From the NCBI GenBank assembly GCA_902775895.1, contig CACYNO010000009.1:1-58149 (forward strand): a DNA stretch of 58,149 nucleotides. Reading direction: 5' to 3'. Below the pieces are notes generated by a model, which did not search any database, was not told the origin of the DNA, and saw nothing but the letters and a program-made list of their open reading frames with translations. This document shows, piece after piece, positions 1 to 9,625 of this stretch (position 1 is its first letter; each line of letters opens with the position of its first letter). Source of the DNA: an uncultured Lachnospiraceae bacterium. GTDB lineage: Bacteria > Bacillota > Clostridia > Lachnospirales > Lachnospiraceae. The translations under genes and the position numbers were made by a program.

Positions 1-987
1 CTTTTCGGATGTACATACGCAAATGTTCAGCCTCATTCCGGAGCACAGGCTAATTTTGCAGTTTTTTATGCACTTCTTCAGCCGGGAGATACCTTTATGG
101 GTATGAGTCTTGACTGCGGAGGTCATCTTTCCCACGGTTCACCTGCCAATATTTCCGGTTCATACTATAACATAGTGCCTTACGGGGTAAATGACGAAGG
201 CTTTATTGATTATGATGAGGTAAGAAGGATAGCAAATGAATGTAAACCCAAGCTTATCGTGGCAGGTGCCAGCGCGTATGCAAGAACCATCGACTTTGCA
301 AAGTTCAGAGAGATAGCAGACGAAGTCGGAGCATTTCTTATGGTGGATATGGCTCACATTGCCGGCCTTGTAGCCGGTGGTGAGCATGCAAGCCCCATAC
401 CATATGCACATGTTGTGACCACAACTACACATAAGACACTTCGCGGTCCCAGAGGCGGAATGATCCTTTCCTCTGAAGAGTTTGCAACAGAGCACAAATT
501 GAACAAATCAATATTCCCGGGAACCCAGGGCGGACCGCTTATGCATGTAATTGCAGCAAAAGCAGTTGCACTTAAAGAAGCCCTTGATCCTGCATTTAAG
601 ACATATGCAAAGAACGTAGTGGATAATGCTAAAGCGCTTTGCGAGGGGCTTCAGTCAAGAGGGTTTGACATAGTGTCCGGGGGCACGGACAACCACCTCA
701 TGCTTGTTGATCTTGTGAAGACAGGAAAGACCGGTAAAGAAGTAGAGGCGCTTCTTGATGAGGTGAATATAACATGTAACAAAAACACCATTCCAAATGA
801 CCCTCAGTCACCATTTGTGACAAGCGGGATTCGACTCGGTACGGCAGCTGTTACCACCAGAGGCTTTAATACTGATGATTGTGACAAAACAGCAGAGGCA
901 ATCAAGCTTGCTATACTGGATGGAAAAGTTGATGAGGCTAGGGCTGTCGTGAAGGAACTTACGGACAAGTATCCGCTTTATGAATGA
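1..987 (+). CDS. glyA: Serine hydroxymethyltransferase, 5-prime truncated by window edge
   Basis: This enzyme interconverts serine and glycine with tetrahydrofolate, a PLP-dependent cytosolic reaction that supplies one-carbon units. The reading frame is open from base 1, so the N-terminal quarter lies outside the window. Visible family motifs are [12 protein letters not shown] near the left edge, GGHLSHGS, the substrate-region DMAHIAGL, and [14 protein letters not shown], in which the lysine after His is the PLP Schiff-base residue. The C-terminal region matches the normal end of the family. Its TGA at 985-987 overlaps an ATG at 984, but the next gene probably starts 20 bases later. Confidence 0.96.
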
Positions 988-1007
988 TAAAATGTTTGGA
1001 GGAAGCA

Positions 1008-2027
1008 ATGGGAAAGTTATTATCTGTTTCCGTGGCATCTTATAAAGTTGAGGATTATATCAGAAAAACACTTGAGTCATGTGTTATACCTGAGTTAATG
1101 GACAAGTTGGAGGTCCTTGTTATTGTTGACGGAGTTTGTGACAGAACGCCTGAGATTGCACGTGAATTCGAAGTGAAGTATCCTGATACGTTCAGGGTTA
1201 TTGAAAAAGAAAACGGTGGATACGGAACAACGGTTAACAGAGGCGTTGATGAGGCATCCGGTAAATACTTTAAACTACTCGACGGGGATGATACCTTTGA
1301 CAAAAAGGGATTGACCCGTCTTATTCATGAACTTGAAGATACAGATGCCGATTGGATCATTTCAGCAAAACGGCTTATCCAGGAAAAAGACGGAATAAGT
1401 AAAGTGTCTTATCCTGTATCGGATGATCTTGTTGATGAACTTGATGGTCAGACTCTTGGGGCGGAAACAATTGACTTCGACATATATAGTAGTATGTGGA
1501 ATAATACCGTTAAGACTGAAATATTGAAAAAACACCTTCCGGAGCTTCCGGGTGGCTGCCAATATACTGATGAGTTGTTTAATACATATTTCCTGCCATA
1601 TGTAAAAAAAGTGAAATTTGTACTGGAACCGGTATATGAGTATCTTTTGAGATACCGCGAACCTGATGAAGAGACCAAAAAAAAGAATCTCGAAAACTTT
1701 ATCTTTATAAGAAAAAAAGAACTAAAGTTTTTTGGGAAAGTTCCGAAGACAAAGAATCACAGAACATTTAAGTACCGAATAAAGACTTATTATCAAAGGC
1801 TTCTTATGGCAGTACTTAGTATGAAGCCGTCTAAAGAGATGTATGTTGTCTACAGACAGCTTGAGTCATACTGTAAAAAGGTGGCACCTGAGATATATGA
1901 AGATGCGGTGGTCGGAGGAAAGAAGATAGAGATACTCAGAAAAACCGGATATAATTATTGGGTGTTTTTAATCTTTGCAAAGACTGTTAAAGACTACATT
2001 ATGAAAGATAAAGTGTCGATAGAATAA
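1008..2027 (+). CDS. Family 2 glycosyltransferase (surface glycan synthesis)
   Basis: A predicted GT-A fold inverting glycosyltransferase of the GT2 type, acting in the cytosol on a lipid-linked or wall glycan. The N-terminus has the GT2 signature SVSVASYKVEDYIRKTL, followed by a nucleotide-binding acidic stretch and LLDGDDTFDKKGL, the D-x-D equivalent, about 95 residues in. There is no membrane segment. An in-frame ATG at 984 overlaps the glyA stop, but the ATG at 1008 has a GGAGGA site at 998-1003, so it was preferred. It is the first gene of a run through 6485 with short gaps. The sugar donor and acceptor cannot be read from the sequence. Confidence 0.85.
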   Translation: MGKLLSVSVASYKVEDYIRKTLESCVIPELMDKLEVLVIVDGVCDRTPEIAREFEVKYPDTFRVIEKENGGYGTTVNRGVDEASGKYFKLLDGDDTFDKKGLTRLIHELEDTDADWIISAKRLIQEKDGISKVSYPVSDDLVDELDGQTLGAETIDFDIYSSMWNNTVKTEILKKHLPELPGGCQYTDELFNTYFLPYVKKVKFVLEPVYEYLLRYREPDEETKKKNLENFIFIRKKELKFFGKVPKTKNHRTFKYRIKTYYQRLLMAVLSMKPSKEMYVVYRQLESYCKKVAPEIYEDAVVGGKKIEILRKTGYNYWVFLIFAKTVKDYIMKDKVSIE

Positions 2028-2043
2028 AAAACTGGAGAGAAAA

Positions 2044-4011
2044 ATGGGCACACACAAGGTTAAGGTTCTTGAAGTAAATGTTGATGATCAGGGAAATGGA
2101 GGGGTTTTTTCTCTCATCAAGACTGTTGTTGAAAGTAAACCTGATAATCTGAAGATCGATATTGCGGCACTTGAGCCCTTCGATAAAAAATCCAATGTTA
2201 ACTATTTGAAAAAACTGGGGACCGATGTTTACTATGTCGGATATAATGGCAACAAACTAAAAAAGCAAATGGTCATATACCGCAATATGATAGATCTGCT
2301 CAAAAAAAACAAGTACGACGTGGTTCATATACATGCAGATGTGGCTAATAAACTGCTTGTTTCCGGGTTGGCTGCAAAAAAATGCGGAGTTCCCAAGATA
2401 ATCTTACATTCTCATGCCACGGGTACAGATGGGAATCACCGTGAACTTAAAAATAAAATGCATATGATATGCAGAAAAAAGTTAACAAATCTCGGGGCTG
2501 AATATGCTGCCTGCTCGTATGCGGCAGCAAAGTGGATGTTTCCAAATGTGCCTAAGTCTGAGATCAGACTTATAAAAAACGGGATTGACATAAAAAAATA
2601 TACTTATGATCCCGGAATGAGAAAAAAGACAAGAGAGGAATTAAATATTGGATCAAAGGATCTTCTTATAGGACATGTAGGGAGATTCATGTACCAGAAA
2701 AATCACGAGTACGTTATAAAAGTATTTGATGCATTTCAAAAGGAGTGGAAAAATAAAGGGTATGACGGTACCCCGAGGCTTATTCTTGTAGGAGACGGAG
2801 AACGTCTTAGAGATATTAAGGAGTCGGTTAAGAAAAAAGGTCTTACCGATAAAGTTATCTTTTATGGACTAAGTAACAGGGTGAACGAGCTCATGCAGGC
2901 TATGGATGTCTTTATCTTACCGTCATTTTTTGAAGGGCTGCCAATTGTAGGTATAGAAGCTCAGGCAGCAGGTCTTCCGGTTTTGTTTTCTGACAAGATA
3001 ACCAGGGAGTCCGGTTTTTCTAAGGATGTAAGATTTTTGTCAATTGATGAGAATTCAATTAATATTTGGGCAGATGAGCTTTTTAAAATCAGAGACGGAT
3101 ACGAGAGAAAGGATACATCCGTTAATCTCAAAAAACGGGGCTATAGCATTGATGATACTGTAAAATATCTTATTGGTCTCTACGGAGCAGACAGAGAAAA
3201 CAGCAAAAGTGCTTTTAAAAGATTGTCGGATCAGGAAGTGAAAGATGAGCTTTTCAGGATATTATCTGATTTTGCAGATTATTGTGATGAAAACGGTCTG
3301 AAATATTCTCTTTGCGGTGGTACTCTCCTTGGAGCTGTAAGGCATAAAGATTTTATACCGTGGGATGATGATGTGGACGTGTTTTTATCAAGAGCTGATT
3401 ACAAAAGATTACATGAGCTTGTAAAAAAGAAACCTATCGGAAAGAATTATCGTTTGGAAAGTCTTCAAAACGGAAAGCTGTTTTTACCTTTTGCTAAGAT
3501 AACAGATACATCAACCAAAATTAAAGAAAAATACTACACTAATAACAAACATCTTTGGATAGATATTTTTCCGGTTGATGGTATGCCGACTGATAAAGCA
3601 AAGGCTGACAGATTGCTTGATGAGATAATTCGATTGAAAAGGTATATAGGATGGGCAATGGCAAAGCCGGGTACGGGAACAACAAAGTTGAGGGCTGCGG
3701 CAAGAAACATTGCAATGATAATACCCAAGATTCGCGGGGCAAAATACTATGCCCGAAAAATAAGTGATCTTGCGCAACAAAACAATTATAAAGAAAGTGA
3801 ATATGTCGGATCTGCAGTTTGGGCTATCAGCCGCGGAGAGAGATTTTTAAAGTCACAATATGAAAATGTTCAGGAGGTTGATTTTCATGGACGTAAGTTC
3901 CATGCTCCGGAATATGATGATTACCTGCGTGGTCTGTACGGAGATTATATGACGCCTCCTCCGGAAAAGGACAGAAAAACTCATTCTATAACTGTTTACA
4001 AGAAAAAATAA
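2044..4011 (+). CDS. Fusion of GT4 glycosyltransferase and LicD-family phosphotransferase
   Basis: Two enzymes in one 655-residue chain. Residues about 5-378 form a GT4/GT-B glycosyltransferase with GHVGRF, VGDGERL and the E-x7-E site EGLPIVGIE at residues 297-305. Residues about 395-655 are a LicD domain with CGGTLLGAVRHKDF and the acidic PWDDDVDV near residue 425, the nucleotidyltransferase-like metal site. LicD proteins move a phosphorylated alcohol from a CDP donor to a sugar: phosphocholine in pneumococcus, ribitol phosphate in the related human FKTN/FKRP. The fusion suggests the GT4 half adds a sugar which the LicD half then decorates. The CDP-forming enzyme is two genes downstream. A GGAGAG site precedes the start. 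Confidence 0.9.
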   Translation: MGTHKVKVLEVNVDDQGNGGVFSLIKTVVESKPDNLKIDIAALEPFDKKSNVNYLKKLGTDVYYVGYNGNKLKKQMVIYRNMIDLLKKNKYDVVHIHADVANKLLVSGLAAKKCGVPKIILHSHATGTDGNHRELKNKMHMICRKKLTNLGAEYAACSYAAAKWMFPNVPKSEIRLIKNGIDIKKYTYDPGMRKKTREELNIGSKDLLIGHVGRFMYQKNHEYVIKVFDAFQKEWKNKGYDGTPRLILVGDGERLRDIKESVKKKGLTDKVIFYGLSNRVNELMQAMDVFILPSFFEGLPIVGIEAQAAGLPVLFSDKITRESGFSKDVRFLSIDENSINIWADELFKIRDGYERKDTSVNLKKRGYSIDDTVKYLIGLYGADRENSKSAFKRLSDQEVKDELFRILSDFADYCDENGLKYSLCGGTLLGAVRHKDFIPWDDDVDVFLSRADYKRLHELVKKKPIGKNYRLESLQNGKLFLPFAKITDTSTKIKEKYYTNNKHLWIDIFPVDGMPTDKAKADRLLDEIIRLKRYIGWAMAKPGTGTTKLRAAARNIAMIIPKIRGAKYYARKISDLAQQNNYKESEYVGSAVWAISRGERFLKSQYENVQEVDFHGRKFHAPEYDDYLRGLYGDYMTPPPEKDRKTHSITVYKKK

Positions 4012-4023
4012 CGGAGATGTTAT

Positions 4024-5064
4024 ATGTTGGATTTCAGCAAAGAGTATTGGGAAGATATAAAAAAAGCGTCAGGAAACATACCTGATATTTCCGGATTGTA
4101 CAAAAAAAGCGTTTTTATAACCGGAGCTACAGGTATGATATGCTCTACCGTTGCAGATATGTTATGGTATCTTAATGATAAAGAAAAAGCCGGGATCAGA
4201 CTCGTGCTTGCAGGCAGAAATGAAGAAAGAATAAAAAAAAGGTTTCCGTATATGAAGGACGGGGATTATGTTTTTATGCGTTTTGACACGTCGGACGTAT
4301 CAGTTTCGGATGAGCGCTTTGACTTTATCATACACGGAGCAGGAAATGCAGATCCCAATGCAATAATGAAGGAACCTGTCGAGACCATTCTGACTAACAT
4401 AATAGGACTGCACAACCTTTTCGGTTTATTAAAAGACAATGATTCAAGAATGCTTTTTATATCATCGAGTGAGATTTACGGAAGAAAAGTGGAAAGCGGA
4501 TCTATGTCAGAAGAGGATTACGGCTTTGTTGATATCCTTAATCCGAGGTCGAGTTATCCTAATGCTAAAAGGATATCGGAGACTTTATGTGCTGCATATA
4601 AAGAGGAATATGGAAAAGACAGTGTTATTGTAAGACCGGGTCATGTTTACGGACCGTCTGTCACAGATAGGGACAGTAGAGCTTCTGCTGAATTTACAAG
4701 AAAAGTCGTTGGCGGAGAAGATATCGTTTTGAAAAGTGACGGTCGTAAAGTTCGCTCTTATATCTATACAGCCGACTGTGCCTCTGCTATTATTACGGTG
4801 TTGTTAAAAGGTGAAAGCACAAATGCATATAATATTTCCAATCCGGATACCAGTGCATCAATAAAAGAATTTGCCAGGGTTATGGCAGAAGCAGGCGGAG
4901 TAGAAGTTGTGTTTGATGTAGAGACTGTACAGGATAAAAGATCCGGTAATATGATGGATAACTCTGTAATTGATCCGGGAAGATTATGCAGTATCGGATG
5001 GAAACCTGAATTTGACCTTGAAAGTGGGATATGTGCTACTTTAAGGGATTATATAAAGGAGTAA
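4024..5064 (+). CDS. Extended SDR, NAD(P)-dependent epimerase/dehydratase/reductase
   Basis: A 346-residue extended short-chain dehydrogenase/reductase related to nucleotide-sugar epimerases. The Rossmann start FITGATGMICS, HGAGNADP, the Ser region SSSEIYG, the catalytic pair Y178-x3-K182 (YPNAKR) and VRPGHVYGP are all present. Proteins of this fold epimerise or reduce nucleotide-linked sugars. Here it sits directly before a CTP-dependent cytidylyltransferase, so the likely substrate is a CDP-linked pentulose or the matching pentulose phosphate, which it might reduce to a pentitol. That role is inferred from context. A CGGAG site precedes ATG 4024, 12 bases after the previous stop. Confidence 0.85.
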   Translation: MLDFSKEYWEDIKKASGNIPDISGLYKKSVFITGATGMICSTVADMLWYLNDKEKAGIRLVLAGRNEERIKKRFPYMKDGDYVFMRFDTSDVSVSDERFDFIIHGAGNADPNAIMKEPVETILTNIIGLHNLFGLLKDNDSRMLFISSSEIYGRKVESGSMSEEDYGFVDILNPRSSYPNAKRISETLCAAYKEEYGKDSVIVRPGHVYGPSVTDRDSRASAEFTRKVVGGEDIVLKSDGRKVRSYIYTADCASAIITVLLKGESTNAYNISNPDTSASIKEFARVMAEAGGVEVVFDVETVQDKRSGNMMDNSVIDPGRLCSIGWKPEFDLESGICATLRDYIKE

Positions 5065-5068
5065 TGAT

Positions 5069-5779
5069 ATGAACATAGGATTACTTATAGCAGGCGGAAG
5101 CGGAAAAAGGATGGGGCAGGATATTCCCAAACAGTTTCTGACCGTTAATGAAAAGCCGGTTATCGTATATACTCTCGAAGCATTTCAAGATCATCCTGAG
5201 ATTGACGAGATTGCGGTTGTATGTATTGAAGGCTGGGAGAATATGCTTTCTGCTTATGCAAAACAGTTTAATATAACCAAATTAAAGAATATTTTTCCGG
5301 GTGGAGAAAACGGTCAGGATTCAATCAGAAACGGAGTGTATGGTTTAAGGGATGCTTATGGGGATGATAATATAGTGCTTATCCATGATTCCATAAGACC
5401 CATGGTTTCTCCGGAGATCATTTCCGATTGTATATCCGTTACTGAGAAAAAAGGATGTGCTATAACGGTTATTCCCTGTGCAGAAGCGATGCTTGAGACA
5501 AATGACGGGATTGAGTCCGATGGCAGTTATCCCCGAGACAGGCTTAAGAGAACACAGACACCGCAGGGTTTTAAACTCGGTGAGATATGTGATCTGCATA
5601 AAAGAGCGTTGGAGTCAGGAATAACTAATTCGGTTGCATCCTGTACTTTAAAGATAGAAATGGGTGAGAAGGTTTATTTTTCAAAGGGTTCTGAGAAAAA
5701 TATCAAGCTTACCACGGTTGAGGACATAGATATATTTAAAGCCCTGCTAATGGCTAAGCGGGCAGATTGGCTGAAATGA
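5069..5779 (+). CDS. IspD/TarI-like cytidylyltransferase
   Basis: A 236-residue CTP-dependent nucleotidyltransferase of the IspD family. Visible are the CTP loop [18 protein letters not shown] at the N-terminus, [14 protein letters not shown], the metal-site region HDSIRP at residue 106, and KRTQTPQGF. The same family contains IspD (methylerythritol phosphate) and TarI (ribitol-5-phosphate). Its position between an SDR and an AraD homologue inside a glycan cluster with a LicD domain favours a pentitol or pentulose phosphate substrate, giving a CDP-linked donor, over an isoprenoid role. It may be the TarI counterpart, but no TarJ-type medium-chain reductase is next to it. An AAAGGAG site lies just upstream. 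Confidence 0.88.
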
Positions 5780-5792
5780 CAGAGGTTTTTAT

Positions 5793-6485
5793 ATGCTTGA
5801 GAGATTAAAGGAAGATGTATGTAAAGCGAATATTGAACTTTCCGAAAAAAGTATAGTGATATATACATGGGGTAATGTCAGTGGTATTGACAGGCAAAAA
5901 GGTCTGGTAGTTATCAAGCCTTCAGGCGTCAGTTATGAGGATATGGCGCCGGAAGATATGGTCGTAGTAGATCTTGAATCGGGAGAAGTTGTTGAAGGGA
6001 ATCTGAAGCCGTCATCAGATACGAAAACCCACTTGGAGATATATAGGGCATTTTGCGGAGTCTCAGGTGTGGTACACACTCATTCGGCAAATGCCACTGC
6101 GTTTGCTCAGGCCGGAAAAGATATAAAAGCTTTAGGAACAACCCATGCTGATTATTTTTACGGGGATATTCCATGTACAAGGATTTTGTCGAGAGAAGAA
6201 GTGGCCGGAGATTATGAACTAAACACCGGAAAAGTGATAGTCGAGACATTTGCGGAAAGGGGTATTGAACCCGGAGATATTCCGGGTGTAATTGTTGCCG
6301 GTCACGGTCCTTTTGCGTGGGGGAAAGATCCGGGCAATGCAGTACATAATGCGGTCGTTATGGAAAAAATTGCTGAGATGAATATTAAGACTCTTATGAT
6401 AAATTCGAGTGCAAAGCTTCCGGATTACGTTCTTGATAAACATTACAATAGAAAACATGGTATAGATGCGTATTACGGACAGTAA
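5793..6485 (+). CDS. Class II aldolase family, L-ribulose-5-phosphate 4-epimerase type
   Basis: At 230 residues it matches AraD/UlaF-type L-ribulose-5-phosphate 4-epimerases in length. The zinc ligands fall at His95 and His97 ([10 protein letters not shown]) and His171 (GHGPFAWG), the same numbers as in E. coli AraD. Other family marks are GNVSGID and [10 protein letters not shown]. The reaction interconverts L-ribulose 5-phosphate and D-xylulose 5-phosphate. No arabinose catabolic gene is near. Being the last gene of the glycan operon, it probably draws a pentulose phosphate from the pentose phosphate pathway for CDP activation. A hairpin terminator follows at 6501. Confidence 0.88.
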
Positions 6486-6500
6486 AAATATAATTAATAA

Positions 6501-6529
6501 AATCAGGTTAAGAGCCTGATTTTTTTTTA
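6501..6529 (+). terminator. Rho-independent terminator of the glycan operon
   Basis: Six-base stem ATCAGG/CCTGAT with a short loop, then a run of eight T. It closes the operon after the AraD-like gene. Confidence 0.85.
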
Positions 6530-6607
6530 TTTTTTAGCCATATTGTATGATATATTGTTACCATAGATTGCCTATAATTAAAAAAATGGTGGAGGTTAAA
6601 AGTAAAG

Positions 6608-8335
6608 ATGAGAAAAAAGAGACTTATTATAGCAGCATGTGCTGCGTTGTCGACAGTAGGCGTAGTTGCCGTACCGGTGTGTGCGGAAGCAGTGTCATTG
6701 ACATTTGAACCCAATGGAGGAGAGTGGATTGGTCAAAAGTTTTCAATGGATATATTCGGAGTGCGTGTTCTTGAAAATAATTCTCCTCACATGAAACGAA
6801 GCAATTATTATTTGTCAGGATATACAACAAAACCTGACGGAAAGGGCGATTACTACTACTTTGGTGAAACGGTGGCATTATATCCAAATGAAACATGGGT
6901 AAATAAGTTTCCGTCTACAGCTACAAAAGTGTATGCAAAGTGGAAGCAATATAAAACAACCAAGACCGTTAATCTGAGTGAATATAAATTTACACAATTT
7001 ACAAATAGTTCATTGAAGGGTAAAGGATATGTTCCACAAGGAGGAGAAGTTTATAAGAAAAACGGAAAAATGTATTTTGTTGCCTCATGGTATGATCAGG
7101 GTAAAAAAAGTAATGACGTAAAACTGGTAAAATACGAATACGATGGAAAAAATAAAACTGCAGGAATAGCAAGCACATCAGGAAAGATGTATCATGCAAA
7201 CGGAGTTGCTTACGGAGACGGAACGATTTATGTTGCTTCAGGTATTGACGAAAACAAAAATAAAGTAAAGAATCCCGGCAACATGGTCTTTAAACTGAAT
7301 GAATCTTCATTAAGCAATAAAGGTCAGGTTAATTTTAATAATAATTGTTGGGAAGATACCTGCCAGGCAGTAGCATATAAAGACGGAAAACTGTTTGCGG
7401 AATTTTCAAATGGCAGAATAATCATTTTTGATACAAAAACGAATAAGATTGAAAAAGAATTTTATGCTGAAGGTCTTTTGGTGAATGAAGCCTATAATTT
7501 GGTTCAGGGTATGGCAGTAAACGGTAACAAAATATATGTTTTGGCATTCAGAAAAGATTCTAACGGAAAGGTAGTTGTGGGAGATCAAAGGATTTTCGTT
7601 TATGATTACACTGCTTCAAAAGGGAACTGGAAAAAAGAAGAATGGAAAATAGTTGATAAAAACGATGAAATAGAGGACATTTCATTTGTAGACGGAAAGA
7701 TGTACCTCATAAGAGGTGGAGACCATAATTGCGGTGTATATGATCTTTCAAGTAAAATCGCTAAAAAAACAGGCTGGAAAAATGAAAACGGTAAGGTGAG
7801 ATTTTACGGAAAAGATGGCAAAGCCTATACCGGTTGGAAAAAAATGGGGGCGGCTGAAGGTGAGACAATTCCTCACTGGTCGTATTTCGGAGATGACGGT
7901 GTGATCAGGTTAGGATGGCAGCAAATGGGAAAAGGAACGAAGAATCCTGATGGAAATACGGCAAAGCATATTTCTTATTTTGGAGATAACGGCTGGCTTA
8001 GAACCGGATGGCAGCAAATGGGAAAAGGAACGAAGAATCCTGATGGAAATACGAAAAAGCATATTTCTTATTTTGGAGATAATGGTTGGCTTAGAACCGG
8101 ATGGCAGCAAATGGGAAAAGGGACAAGCAATCCCGACGGTAATGTTGCAAAACATTTTTCATACTTTGGCAGTGACGGATGGCTTAGGACAGGCATGGTA
8201 ACGTTAGGCAAGGCAGATGGAGAGAAGATAATTCATAAATCTTACTTCGGAAACAATGGCTGGCTTGTTGTAAACAAGAAGTTCAGTGTGGCAGGAAAAA
8301 TGTATACTTCTGATGCAAAAGGTTGGGTTAGATAA
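6608..8335 (+). CDS. Secreted protein: InlB-like/Flg_new module, propeller-like middle, cell-wall-binding repeats
   Basis: A 575-residue exported protein. Residues 1-26 form a signal peptide ending near VCAEA. Residues about 28-120 resemble a Listeria-Bacteroides (Flg_new) repeat, LTFEPNGGEW to TKVYAKW. Residues about 125-385 contain repeated blades such as DGTIYVAS, DGKLFAEF, GNKIYVLAF and DGKMYLIRG, suggesting a beta-propeller. The tail from about residue 389 has aromatic GW repeats like those of choline-binding proteins (see repeat entry). The role is probably adhesion or wall association. No catalytic motif was seen. A GGAGG lies 12 bases before ATG, a long spacing, and a -10-like TATAAT is at 6573-6578. 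Related proteins lie at 44527 and 46137. Confidence 0.85.
   Translation: MRKKRLIIAACAALSTVGVVAVPVCAEAVSLTFEPNGGEWIGQKFSMDIFGVRVLENNSPHMKRSNYYLSGYTTKPDGKGDYYYFGETVALYPNETWVNKFPSTATKVYAKWKQYKTTKTVNLSEYKFTQFTNSSLKGKGYVPQGGEVYKKNGKMYFVASWYDQGKKSNDVKLVKYEYDGKNKTAGIASTSGKMYHANGVAYGDGTIYVASGIDENKNKVKNPGNMVFKLNESSLSNKGQVNFNNNCWEDTCQAVAYKDGKLFAEFSNGRIIIFDTKTNKIEKEFYAEGLLVNEAYNLVQGMAVNGNKIYVLAFRKDSNGKVVVGDQRIFVYDYTASKGNWKKEEWKIVDKNDEIEDISFVDGKMYLIRGGDHNCGVYDLSSKIAKKTGWKNENGKVRFYGKDGKAYTGWKKMGAAEGETIPHWSYFGDDGVIRLGWQQMGKGTKNPDGNTAKHISYFGDNGWLRTGWQQMGKGTKNPDGNTKKHISYFGDNGWLRTGWQQMGKGTSNPDGNVAKHFSYFGSDGWLRTGMVTLGKADGEKIIHKSYFGNNGWLVVNKKFSVAGKMYTSDAKGWVR
7772..8332 (+). repeat. Tandem cell-wall-binding repeat coding region
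   Basis: Encodes an opening GW unit, one short unit (AEGETIPHWSYFG), three long units of about 31 residues around NPDGNTAKHISYFG, and a terminal cap (GKADGEKIIHKSYFG). The first two long units are nearly identical at DNA level. The same plan recurs in the genes at 44527 and 46137. Confidence 0.85.
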
Positions 8336-8355
8336 ATAAGGTCAGATAAAAAATT

Positions 8356-8396
8356 AAAAACCGATGGTTCGTTTTACGAATACATCGGTTTTTTTA
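8356..8396. terminator. Bidirectional terminator between convergent genes
   Basis: Stem AAAAACCGATG/CATCGGTTTTT with A-tract on one side and T-tract on the other, placed between the ends of the repeat protein (+) and argG (-), so it can serve both. Confidence 0.85.
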
Positions 8397-8410
8397 CGAG
8401 AATCATAGAT

Positions 8411-9625
8411 TTATTTGTTCTCCCCATCATTGATTGCTCTTACCTTCATGGACAGTCCGAAAAGATTGATAAATCCGCTGGCGTCCTTATGGTCGTAGAG
8501 TTCGCCTGTGGTAAAGGAAGCGATAGACTCGTTGTAAAGCGAGTAGGGGCTCTTTGTGCCGAGCTTAATGATGTTGCCTTTATAGAGCTTGAACTTCACC
8601 TCGCCGATTACCTTTTCCTGTGTAGTTTCAACAAAGCTTTGCAGAGCCTCGCGAAGAGGGGTATACCATTTGCCCTCATATACTACCTGTGCATATTTGT
8701 TTGCAATATCCAGTTTTTCGGTATATGTATCACGATCAAGGATAAGTTCTTCAAGCTGCTGGTGTGCTTCGTAAAGGATAGTTCCGCCCGGTGTCTCATA
8801 TACGCCGCGGGACTTCATGCCTACTACACGGTTCTCTACGATATCGATGATTCCGATGCCGTGTTTGCCTCCAAGTTTGTTTAATTCTCTTATAATATCA
8901 GATAATTTCATCATCTGTCCGTTTAGTGCGACAGGAGCACCTTTTTCAAAAGAAAGAGTTACCTCCTCGCCTTCGTCGGGAGCCTTCTCGGGAGATACGG
9001 ACATCACAAGAAGATGGTCGTAATCCGGAGCATTCTCGGGACTCTCGAGCTCAAGACCCTCATGGCTAATATGCCAGATATTGCGGTCGCGGCTGTAGGA
9101 ATCACTTGCTGAAGAAAATGGAAGATCAATACCGTGAGAGCGGCAGTATTCGATCTCATCCTCACGGGACTGGAGAGTCCACTTATCGTCACGCCATGGA
9201 GCGATTATCTGAAGATCCGGTGCAAGTGCCTTGATGGTAAGCTCGAAGCGAACCTGGTCATTTCCCTTGCCTGTAGCACCGTGGCAAATGGCAACGGCTC
9301 CTTCTTTTCTTGCAATCTCAACAAGACGCTTTGCGATAACAGGACGAGCCATGCTTGTTCCCAATAGATATTTGTTTTCATATACGGCATGAGCCTTTAT
9401 GCAGGGAAGTATAAAGTCGTCACAGAATTCGTCCGTGAGATCTTCTATATAGAGTTTCACGGCACCGCTGGCCTTTGCGCGTTCATCGAGGCCGTCAAGC
9501 TCTTCTTCCTGTCCAACGTCTGCGCATACGCATACAACATCATAATTATAATTTTCCTGAAGCCAGGGGATGATGGTAGTAGTATCAAGTCCCCCTGAAT
9601 AAGCCAGAATAACTTTTTCTTTCAT
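8411..9625 (-). CDS. argG: Argininosuccinate synthase
   Basis: Joins citrulline and aspartate with ATP to form argininosuccinate, the penultimate step of arginine synthesis, in the cytosol. The 404-residue length is normal. The N-terminus carries the PP-loop ATP site [10 protein letters not shown], with [15 protein letters not shown] and [15 protein letters not shown] further on, all typical of the family. An AGAAAGG site precedes the ATG. It is transcribed away from argC, with a shared 219-base control region containing an ARG-box-like palindrome. Confidence 0.97.

Follow-up and report, generated by a model that had tools for sequence, protein, structure and literature searches.

In Streptococcus pneumoniae 17F, AbpA and AbpB reportedly convert D-xylulose 5-phosphate to CDP-D-xylulose and then to CDP-D-arabinitol. 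CDP-alditols are also made by way of CDP-ketoses in the Mnp1/Mnp2 and HS5.18/HS5.17 systems, each of which pairs an IspD-family enzyme with a short-chain dehydrogenase/reductase (SDR), and approximately 400 pairs of PF01128 and PF01370 proteins have been predicted to make CDP-glucitol or CDP-mannitol (PMC10918830). IspD-family enzymes of the TarIJ and Acs1 systems provide CDP-pentitols for teichoic acids and capsules; CDP-pentitols are used by the LicD-domain transferases of the ISPD-FKTN/FKRP system, and LicD enzymes transfer the phosphate together with the alditol (PMC4873967). Here, we describe an operon of an uncultured Lachnospiraceae bacterium in which genes for an IspD-like cytidylyltransferase, an extended SDR and a LicD-domain protein are joined by a gene for AraD, L-ribulose-5-phosphate 4-epimerase. 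The window analysed is the whole of contig CACYNO010000009.1 (58,149 nucleotides) and belongs to a 1.65-Mb genome of 14 contigs (GCA_902775895.1) that is 95.2% complete. The initial annotation had read these genes as a CDP-pentitol phosphate pathway, other than TarIJ, that feeds LicD. That interpretation is correct in outline, the operon being real and recurrent; comparative evidence upholds its core, and the substrate and the order of steps are revised below.

We hold with moderate confidence that the operon would make and attach an L-configured pentitol phosphate by way of CDP-L-ribulose. AraD would act backwards, converting D-xylulose 5-phosphate to L-ribulose 5-phosphate, from which the IspD-like enzyme would form CDP-L-ribulose with CTP. 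The SDR would then reduce C2 with NAD(P)H to give either CDP-L-ribitol, that is, ribitol joined via C1 instead of C5, or CDP-L-arabinitol, and the LicD half of a fusion protein would transfer the pentitol phosphate to a glycan extended by the GT4 half of the same protein and by a GT2 glycosyltransferase. The sequence data behind this proposal are the genes present and their order, the conservation of active-site residues, the recurrence of the cluster, the structure of the clades and the co-occurrence seen across genomes. From them we infer the probable substrate, the direction of AraD, the order of activation and reduction, the possible configurations at C2 and the acceptor. The characterised reductases differ in their outcome at C2, HS5.17 yielding D-glucitol and Mnp2 D-mannitol (PMC10918830), so the C2 configuration cannot be called from sequence. 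By our own Fischer analysis, the C3 and C4 hydroxyls of L-ribulose 5-phosphate are on the left, and reduction at C2 should give ribitol attached via its C1 end or L-arabinitol.

The nearest chemistry is that of AbpA/AbpB, reportedly a pentulose-5-phosphate cytidylyltransferase with a CDP-pentulose reductase; these differ in that they reportedly use D-xylulose 5-phosphate directly and are not known to involve an AraD step. In TarIJ and Acs1, D-ribulose 5-phosphate is reduced to D-ribitol 5-phosphate and then activated, whereas the window enzyme falls under the cut-off for that cytidylyltransferase and its neighbour is an SDR. The Campylobacter jejuni HS:5 pair is alike in that a PF01128 cytidylyltransferase acts on a ketose phosphate and an extended SDR then reduces the CDP-ketose, and the catalytic and phosphate-binding residues are common to HS5.17 and the window SDR. 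It differs in that the sugar is a hexulose rather than a pentulose and in a Gln196 replaced by His in the window, and the accessible part of the report mentions no AraD (PMC10918830). The ISPD-FKTN/FKRP system is mammalian and uses D-ribitol 5-phosphate, and no dedicated epimerase is mentioned in the accessible part of its source (PMC4873967). The type of chemistry is known; what appears to be new is the dedicated AraD, and hence the L-pentulose, as a recurrent module. Among the matches listed from the open-licence PMC literature, we recognised no description of araD, licD and ispD together or of the AraD trio, and 'CDP-L-ribulose' was absent; 'CDP-L-ribitol' occurred there, mostly in connection with human disease.

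The IspD-like cytidylyltransferase and its neighbouring SDR

Judged by its sequence, the IspD-like protein of the window (CYTIDYLYLTRANSFERASE) belongs to a separate subfamily, which we call IspD-I. It scores below the cut-offs of two NCBIfam IspD models (TIGR00453, 166.0 against 181.3; NF001186, 161.7 against 253) and below that of the D-ribitol-5-phosphate cytidylyltransferase (TarI) model (NF001183, 151.8 against 166). The loci described below yielded 120 distinct IspD-like proteins. When these were split at 64% identity to that of the window, the 89 at or above this value carried PCAEAM in 87 cases, RTQTPQ in all 89 and the exact string TNSVASCTL in 66, as against none, none and one of the 31 proteins below it. 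Motifs such as HDGNRCMVS / PCVEAVF / TQTPHTY and HDGIRPLVD / PYNEQIF are found outside IspD-I. On the IspD tree, core IspD-I (85 rows) forms one branch with support of 99/92, and four more PCAEAM proteins, 64-67% identical to that of the window, fall outside it, so that the support for a single branch extends to the core and not to the whole motif group. A second, canonical-looking IspD-like gene (HDAARPMVT / PVKDTIK / AAQTPQCF) lies elsewhere in the same genome, beside a gene read as tsaD. At L073, L079, L080, L123, L133 and L151, two different IspD-like genes stand side by side, which suggests that two CDP-alditols are used in one glycan.

The best solved relatives of the window SDR are 8v4g (E 2.4e-35) and 8v4h (E 2.8e-35), structures of the C. 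jejuni oxidoreductase HS5.17, which converts CDP-6-D-fructose to CDP-6-D-glucitol and was solved with CDP and NADP(H) and with CDP-6-D-glucitol (PMC10918830). Because its closest solved relative is a CDP-6-fructose reductase, cytidylylation before reduction is more likely than the reverse order, in which the initial annotation had placed the SDR ahead of the IspD-like enzyme. HS5.17 residues E140, R164, Y167 and K171 (YxxxK) and R233 are all present in the window SDR. An SDR was found within 2.5 kb and on the same strand at 76 loci, 99 stretches having had an IspD-like match. Nine of these SDRs were set apart, seven beside more distant or odd IspD-I-like proteins (L064, L072-L076, L133) and two beside tier II proteins (L081, L082). 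Throughout the 67 SDRs beside core IspD-I, E140, R164, Y167, K171 and R233 are invariant, and R208 is kept in 63.

The glutamine at position 196 of HS5.17 bridges the C3' and C4' hydroxyls of the sugar (PMC10918830); this position is His in the window SDR and in 67 of the 67 beside core IspD-I. These alignments thus show a retained reductase core and an altered sugar contact, and the alteration is not peculiar to IspD-I. Of the cytosine contacts of HS5.17, D212 is replaced by Glu in the window SDR and in most others by Gln or Ala, and T227 is Ser. The 67 SDRs comprise two groups, one with Ser139 and Gly195 (39 proteins) and the other with Gly139 and Cys or Ser195 (28), which are separated on the SDR tree by branches of only moderate support (94/70 and 91/88). 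The window SDR and that of L094 belong to one group, those of L100 (Ruminococcus flavefaciens) and L088 to the other. These groups may differ in the C2 configuration that they set. As a marker of AraD use the grouping was rejected, 10 AraD-linked loci being found in each group. The reading of L084 as two SDRs was likewise discarded, as the length and gap look like one gene split into two frames.

Recurrence of the operon and the AraD clade

A profile built from 15 related IspD-like proteins was used to scan a genome collection, and the best 80 of 561 loci, called the named loci here, were fetched; cultured carriers include R. flavefaciens and Anaerovibrio slackiae. Because this selection used the IspD-like protein alone, AraD was free to be absent from the loci. 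Nineteen of the 80 stretches held an AraD match, in every case on the same strand; it was no more than 1.3 kb from the IspD-like gene in 17 of them, and 6.4 kb (L095) and 8.6 kb (L114) away in the others. The arrangement is more than chance would produce. Seventeen of the 19 are one continuous frame with at least 215 matched residues, 15 of these within 1.3 kb; the linked AraD of L112 is a 65-residue piece and that of L128 is not continuous. In the nearest relative, L083, whose IspD-like protein is 90% identical to that of the window, the order is fusion-SDR-IspD-AraD, the fusion again has 655 residues, and a gene read as argG follows. Among the family genomes, the AraD of G008 (L063) is on the same strand at a distance of 11 kb, and AraD is interrupted by two TAG codons in G181 and broken in G250. 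The SDR of another family genome, G077, is identical to that of L107, from the Lachnospiraceae species Ohessyouella blattaphilus.

Broken or partial copies of the SDR or AraD were also seen inside IspD-I clusters at L065 (6826-7643), L112 and L128, as though loss of the linked AraD were under way; a further AraD is present elsewhere in the genomes of both L065 (G250) and L112. The cluster of G181 (L064, 6961-11803) contains genes for an IspD-like protein, an RpiB-like protein, a 1-deoxy-xylulose-5-phosphate synthase-like (DXS-like) protein (NF008968), an SDR and the AraD with two in-frame TAG codons. At L066 (G250:C21, 2357-13232), the neighbours of the IspD-I and SDR genes are genes for a rhamnulokinase-like protein, a propanediol-type dehydratase large subunit and a tagaturonate reductase, an unexpected catabolic setting, and no LicD match was found in that stretch.

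The window AraD scores 365.1 bits against NF006047 (cut-off 257) and 354.8 against NF009003 (cut-off 331), and lies under the equivalog cut-off of TIGR00760 (356.3 against 389.1). It is 56% identical to E. coli AraD and keeps the zinc and catalytic positions that were checked. A maximum-likelihood tree was built of 58 AraDs, from 62 proteins of which 57 were distinct, with identical duplicates dropped and the interrupted or partial AraDs of L064, L065, L112 and L128 omitted. On this tree the cassette AraDs form one branch of 22 rows with support of 98/93. It contains all 19 continuous linked AraDs in the tree, namely those of the window, L063 and 17 named loci. Three further rows complete it: L163 and L164, which are unlinked AraDs of two IspD-I genomes (those of L099 and L101), and L050 of G178. 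Outside the branch are E. coli AraD and 35 others, of which at least 11 have AraA on the same contig no more than 10 kb away (L038, L045, L049, L054, L056, L060, L061, L166, L168, L171 and L172). The AraD of L077, also outside the clade, is by our own reading beside an FGGY-type kinase and a transketolase.

Residues D76, H95, H97, H171, D120 and Y229, which we take to be the zinc ligands and catalytic residues of AraD, are conserved in 22/22 clade members and in 35/35 others; the 1k0w chain has Asn at position 120. All 15 checked positions are identical across the 22 clade members, so the chemistry of the cassette AraDs should be that of an L-ribulose-5-phosphate 4-epimerase. They would differ from catabolic AraD solely in context and direction: the window AraD sits in a glycan operon, belongs to its own clade and is proposed to run in reverse. 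The clade includes Lachnospiraceae, Oscillospiraceae, Selenomonadaceae and one metagenome-assembled genome of the Coriobacteriaceae, and its presence across several families suggests horizontal spread. Its member L050 (1492-2190 of that stretch) comes from a genome, G178, that gave no IspD-like match at E 1e-40, and by our own reading adjoins a gene for an extracellular solute-binding-type protein.

Of the 80 loci, 58 have a LicD match no more than 6 kb away, as do 13 of the 19 with AraD. In the window protein the LicD domain spans residues 414-633 of 655, and the translation contains an acidic DDDVD stretch, presumably the LicD acidic motif. The domain had been recognised in the initial annotation; the fusion to an N-terminal GT4 half is an addition to it. 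A TagF-like polymerase is within 10 kb in six of the 80 loci. At one of these, L085, the gene directly after AraD encodes a 1494-residue protein (3590-8074) that contains a CDP-glycerol glycerophosphotransferase domain (PF04464), which suggests possible polymerisation of the pentitol phosphate at this locus.

A broader proposal, which we offer only tentatively, is that gut Firmicutes may share a pathway, widespread and passed on horizontally, in which CDP-L-ribulose and then CDP-pentitols of mirror form would be made. IspD-I would be its dedicated L-ribulose-5-phosphate cytidylyltransferase, supplied by a backwards-acting AraD, and the SDR groups (Ser/Gly139) may set opposite configurations at C2, leading to L-ribitol phosphate in one case and L-arabinitol phosphate in the other.

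Proposed source of L-ribulose 5-phosphate and competing interpretations

AraD was sought elsewhere (threshold E 1e-50) in the 50 named IspD-I genomes without a continuous linked copy, and was present in 49. This test leaves out 12 of the 80 loci, mostly near a contig end (L090, L097, L102, L103, L106, L109, L111, L117, L127, L131, L152 and L160), and L128 stands outside both this test and that for AraA. Counting L128, AraD is present in 67 of 68 named genomes (p 3e-9); without it, in 66 of 67. In a family sample of 299 genomes drawn from a larger group, the strict IspD-I motif was read in the fetched loci only, and family genomes at or below 54% identity were counted as not strict. On this definition AraD was found in 13/13 strict IspD-I genomes versus 193/286 others (Fisher p 0.011), and with the boundary placed at 55% IspD identity or more the values were 18/18 versus 188/281 (p 0.0012). 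Where the best IspD-like protein of a family genome was 45-54% identical, AraD was present in 17 of 27 cases.

The window's own genome has a ribulose-phosphate 3-epimerase (Rpe), so D-xylulose 5-phosphate is available without AraD. The genome (95% complete, with about 5% possibly missing) gave no match to AraA, whose model matches 5/14 controls, and none to L-ribulokinase, whose model matches 11/14 controls and exceeds its cut-off in 3; the ascorbate route to L-ribulose 5-phosphate was not searched. An arabinose catabolic operon, with AraA and AraB accompanying AraD, was not found in this genome. Because Rpe is present and AraA and L-ribulokinase gave no match, AraD would be useful mainly in the backwards direction, being the one source of L-ribulose 5-phosphate that was found. 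The product that the initial annotation had assigned to it, L-ribulose or D-xylulose 5-phosphate, is narrowed to the former, and the way in which AraD accompanies IspD-I from genome to genome points to the same choice.

Several results weigh against the route through CDP-L-ribulose. No AraD was found in the fetched stretch at 61 of the 80 IspD-I loci, the loci with linkage are dispersed over the IspD tree (18 changes versus a shuffled mean of 21.3), and one IspD-I genome, G360 (L157), gave no AraD match. AraA was matched in 8 of the 13 strict family genomes and in 30 of 67 named genomes (6/17 linked and 24/50 unlinked, one of the latter solely by pieces of 21 residues). Family genomes commonly have AraD but no AraA, the two being found in 206 and 123 of the 299 genomes, respectively, and an orphan AraD was therefore rejected as sole proof. 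The co-occurrence tests take no account of relatedness and are inflated by it; the named genomes, which lie partly outside the family of the control sample, have no matched control. The nine set-apart SDRs keep E140, R164 and Y167 in all nine, K171 in eight and R233 in seven. His at the HS5.17 Q196 position was given up as a marker of IspD-I, since it also occurs in five of these nine, including L081 and L082 of tier II. Finally, the RpiB-like and DXS-like genes of G181 could provide a different precursor supply there.

The commoner arrangement, IspD-I without linked AraD, and the reported precedent of AbpA/AbpB in S. pneumoniae 17F would both suit a pathway that starts from D-xylulose 5-phosphate, with AraD merely turning L-ribulose 5-phosphate into that compound. 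Given Rpe, however, D-xylulose 5-phosphate needs no AraD, the genome shows no AraA or L-ribulokinase match by which L-ribulose 5-phosphate would be made, and the co-occurrence of AraD in 49 of 50 genomes is left unexplained, so that we regard this pathway as unlikely. The same class of product would also arise if reduction came first, the SDR acting on L-ribulose 5-phosphate and the IspD-like enzyme on a pentitol phosphate as in TarIJ/Acs1; the best solved relative of the IspD-like profile, 4jis, is indeed a ribitol-5-phosphate cytidylyltransferase. Against this order, the closest solved relative of the SDR acts on an open-chain CDP-ketose and contacts its CDP, and HS5.18 used fructose 6-phosphate, with glucitol 6-phosphate used less than 1% as much (PMC10918830). 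The pyrophosphate residues R164 and R233 are, moreover, kept in every SDR beside core IspD-I, and reduction first seems improbable to us.

It is very improbable that the SDR is an epimerase or dehydratase and that LicD transfers a modified CDP-pentulose, with no pentitol made. Extended SDRs catalyse all these reactions, the best NCBIfam match of the window SDR is dTDP-glucose 4,6-dehydratase (101.5, far under the cut-off of 365.1), and its next relatives in the PDB are UDP-glucuronate decarboxylases. Its closest solved relative, however, is a reductase, and the Asp-Lys/Asp-Glu pair of 4,6-dehydration is absent, HS5.17 Met139-Glu140 (PMC10918830) aligning with Ser-Glu or Gly-Glu. The Pfam domain name, IspD, might instead point to the isoprenoid enzyme in an accidental neighbourhood. 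The LicD half, for its part, might add phosphocholine, as pneumococcal LicD enzymes do. Both ideas are scarcely credible: the second IspD-like gene has the canonical-type motifs, the window gene lies under the IspD cut-offs, and the gene cluster recurs in different families. Phosphocholine was also rejected on the ground that no choline kinase match was found in the window's own genome; this test is weak, the model matching 5/14 controls and exceeding its cut-off in 2.

If the route through CDP-L-ribulose is correct, an L-pentulose branch would be added to CDP-alditol biosynthesis, AraD in some gut genomes would have to be reassigned to wall building instead of arabinose degradation, and an L-pentitol phosphate would be predicted on commensal surfaces, where hosts and phages would meet it. 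Caution would then be due in naming PF01128/PF01370 pairs as CDP-glucitol or CDP-mannitol enzymes by default, and in taking an AraD of this kind to indicate arabinose use.

Gene layout and neighbouring features

The contiguity of the AraD, IspD-like, SDR and LicD genes, all four at short distances, was confirmed as first annotated (Table 1). From the GT2 gene through the fusion, SDR and IspD-like genes to AraD, the gaps are 16, 12, 4 and 13 bases on one strand. The glyA gene at the left edge probably extends past the start of the contig, because its N-terminal part is missing.

Table 1. Features at the left end of the window
Feature	Coordinates	Strand	Remarks
glyA	97-987	+	N-terminal part missing
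GT2 glycosyltransferase	984-2027	+	PF00535 72.1 bits; start overlaps glyA end
GT4-LicD fusion, 655 aa	2044-4011	+	PF00534 90 bits; PF04991 155.5 bits (cut-off 22.6)
Extended SDR, proposed CDP-pentulose reductase	4024-5064	+	PF01370 Epimerase 131.7 bits
IspD-like cytidylyltransferase, proposed L-ribulose-5-phosphate cytidylyltransferase	5069-5779	+	PF01128 130.4 bits
AraD, proposed D-xylulose 5-phosphate to L-ribulose 5-phosphate	5793-6485	+	PF00596 Aldolase_II 171.8 bits; NF006047
Terminator-like hairpin and T run	6499-6523	+	11-pair stem, loop of 3; consensus match only

The hairpin directly 3' of AraD is likely to mark the end of the operon. Ten such matches occur on both strands of positions 1-9000 versus 6.0 expected, and consensus matches of this kind are by themselves no evidence of function. 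Directly after this site, at 6608-8335, lies a gene for a secreted-looking protein of 575 residues with tandem GWQQMGKGTKNPDGNT..YFGDNGWLRTGW repeats, which by eye resemble cell-wall (choline-type) binding repeats and gave no Pfam match over the cut-off. L083 has no counterpart of this gene between its AraD and argG-like genes; in the window, an argG-like gene also lies 3' of AraD, after this one extra gene.

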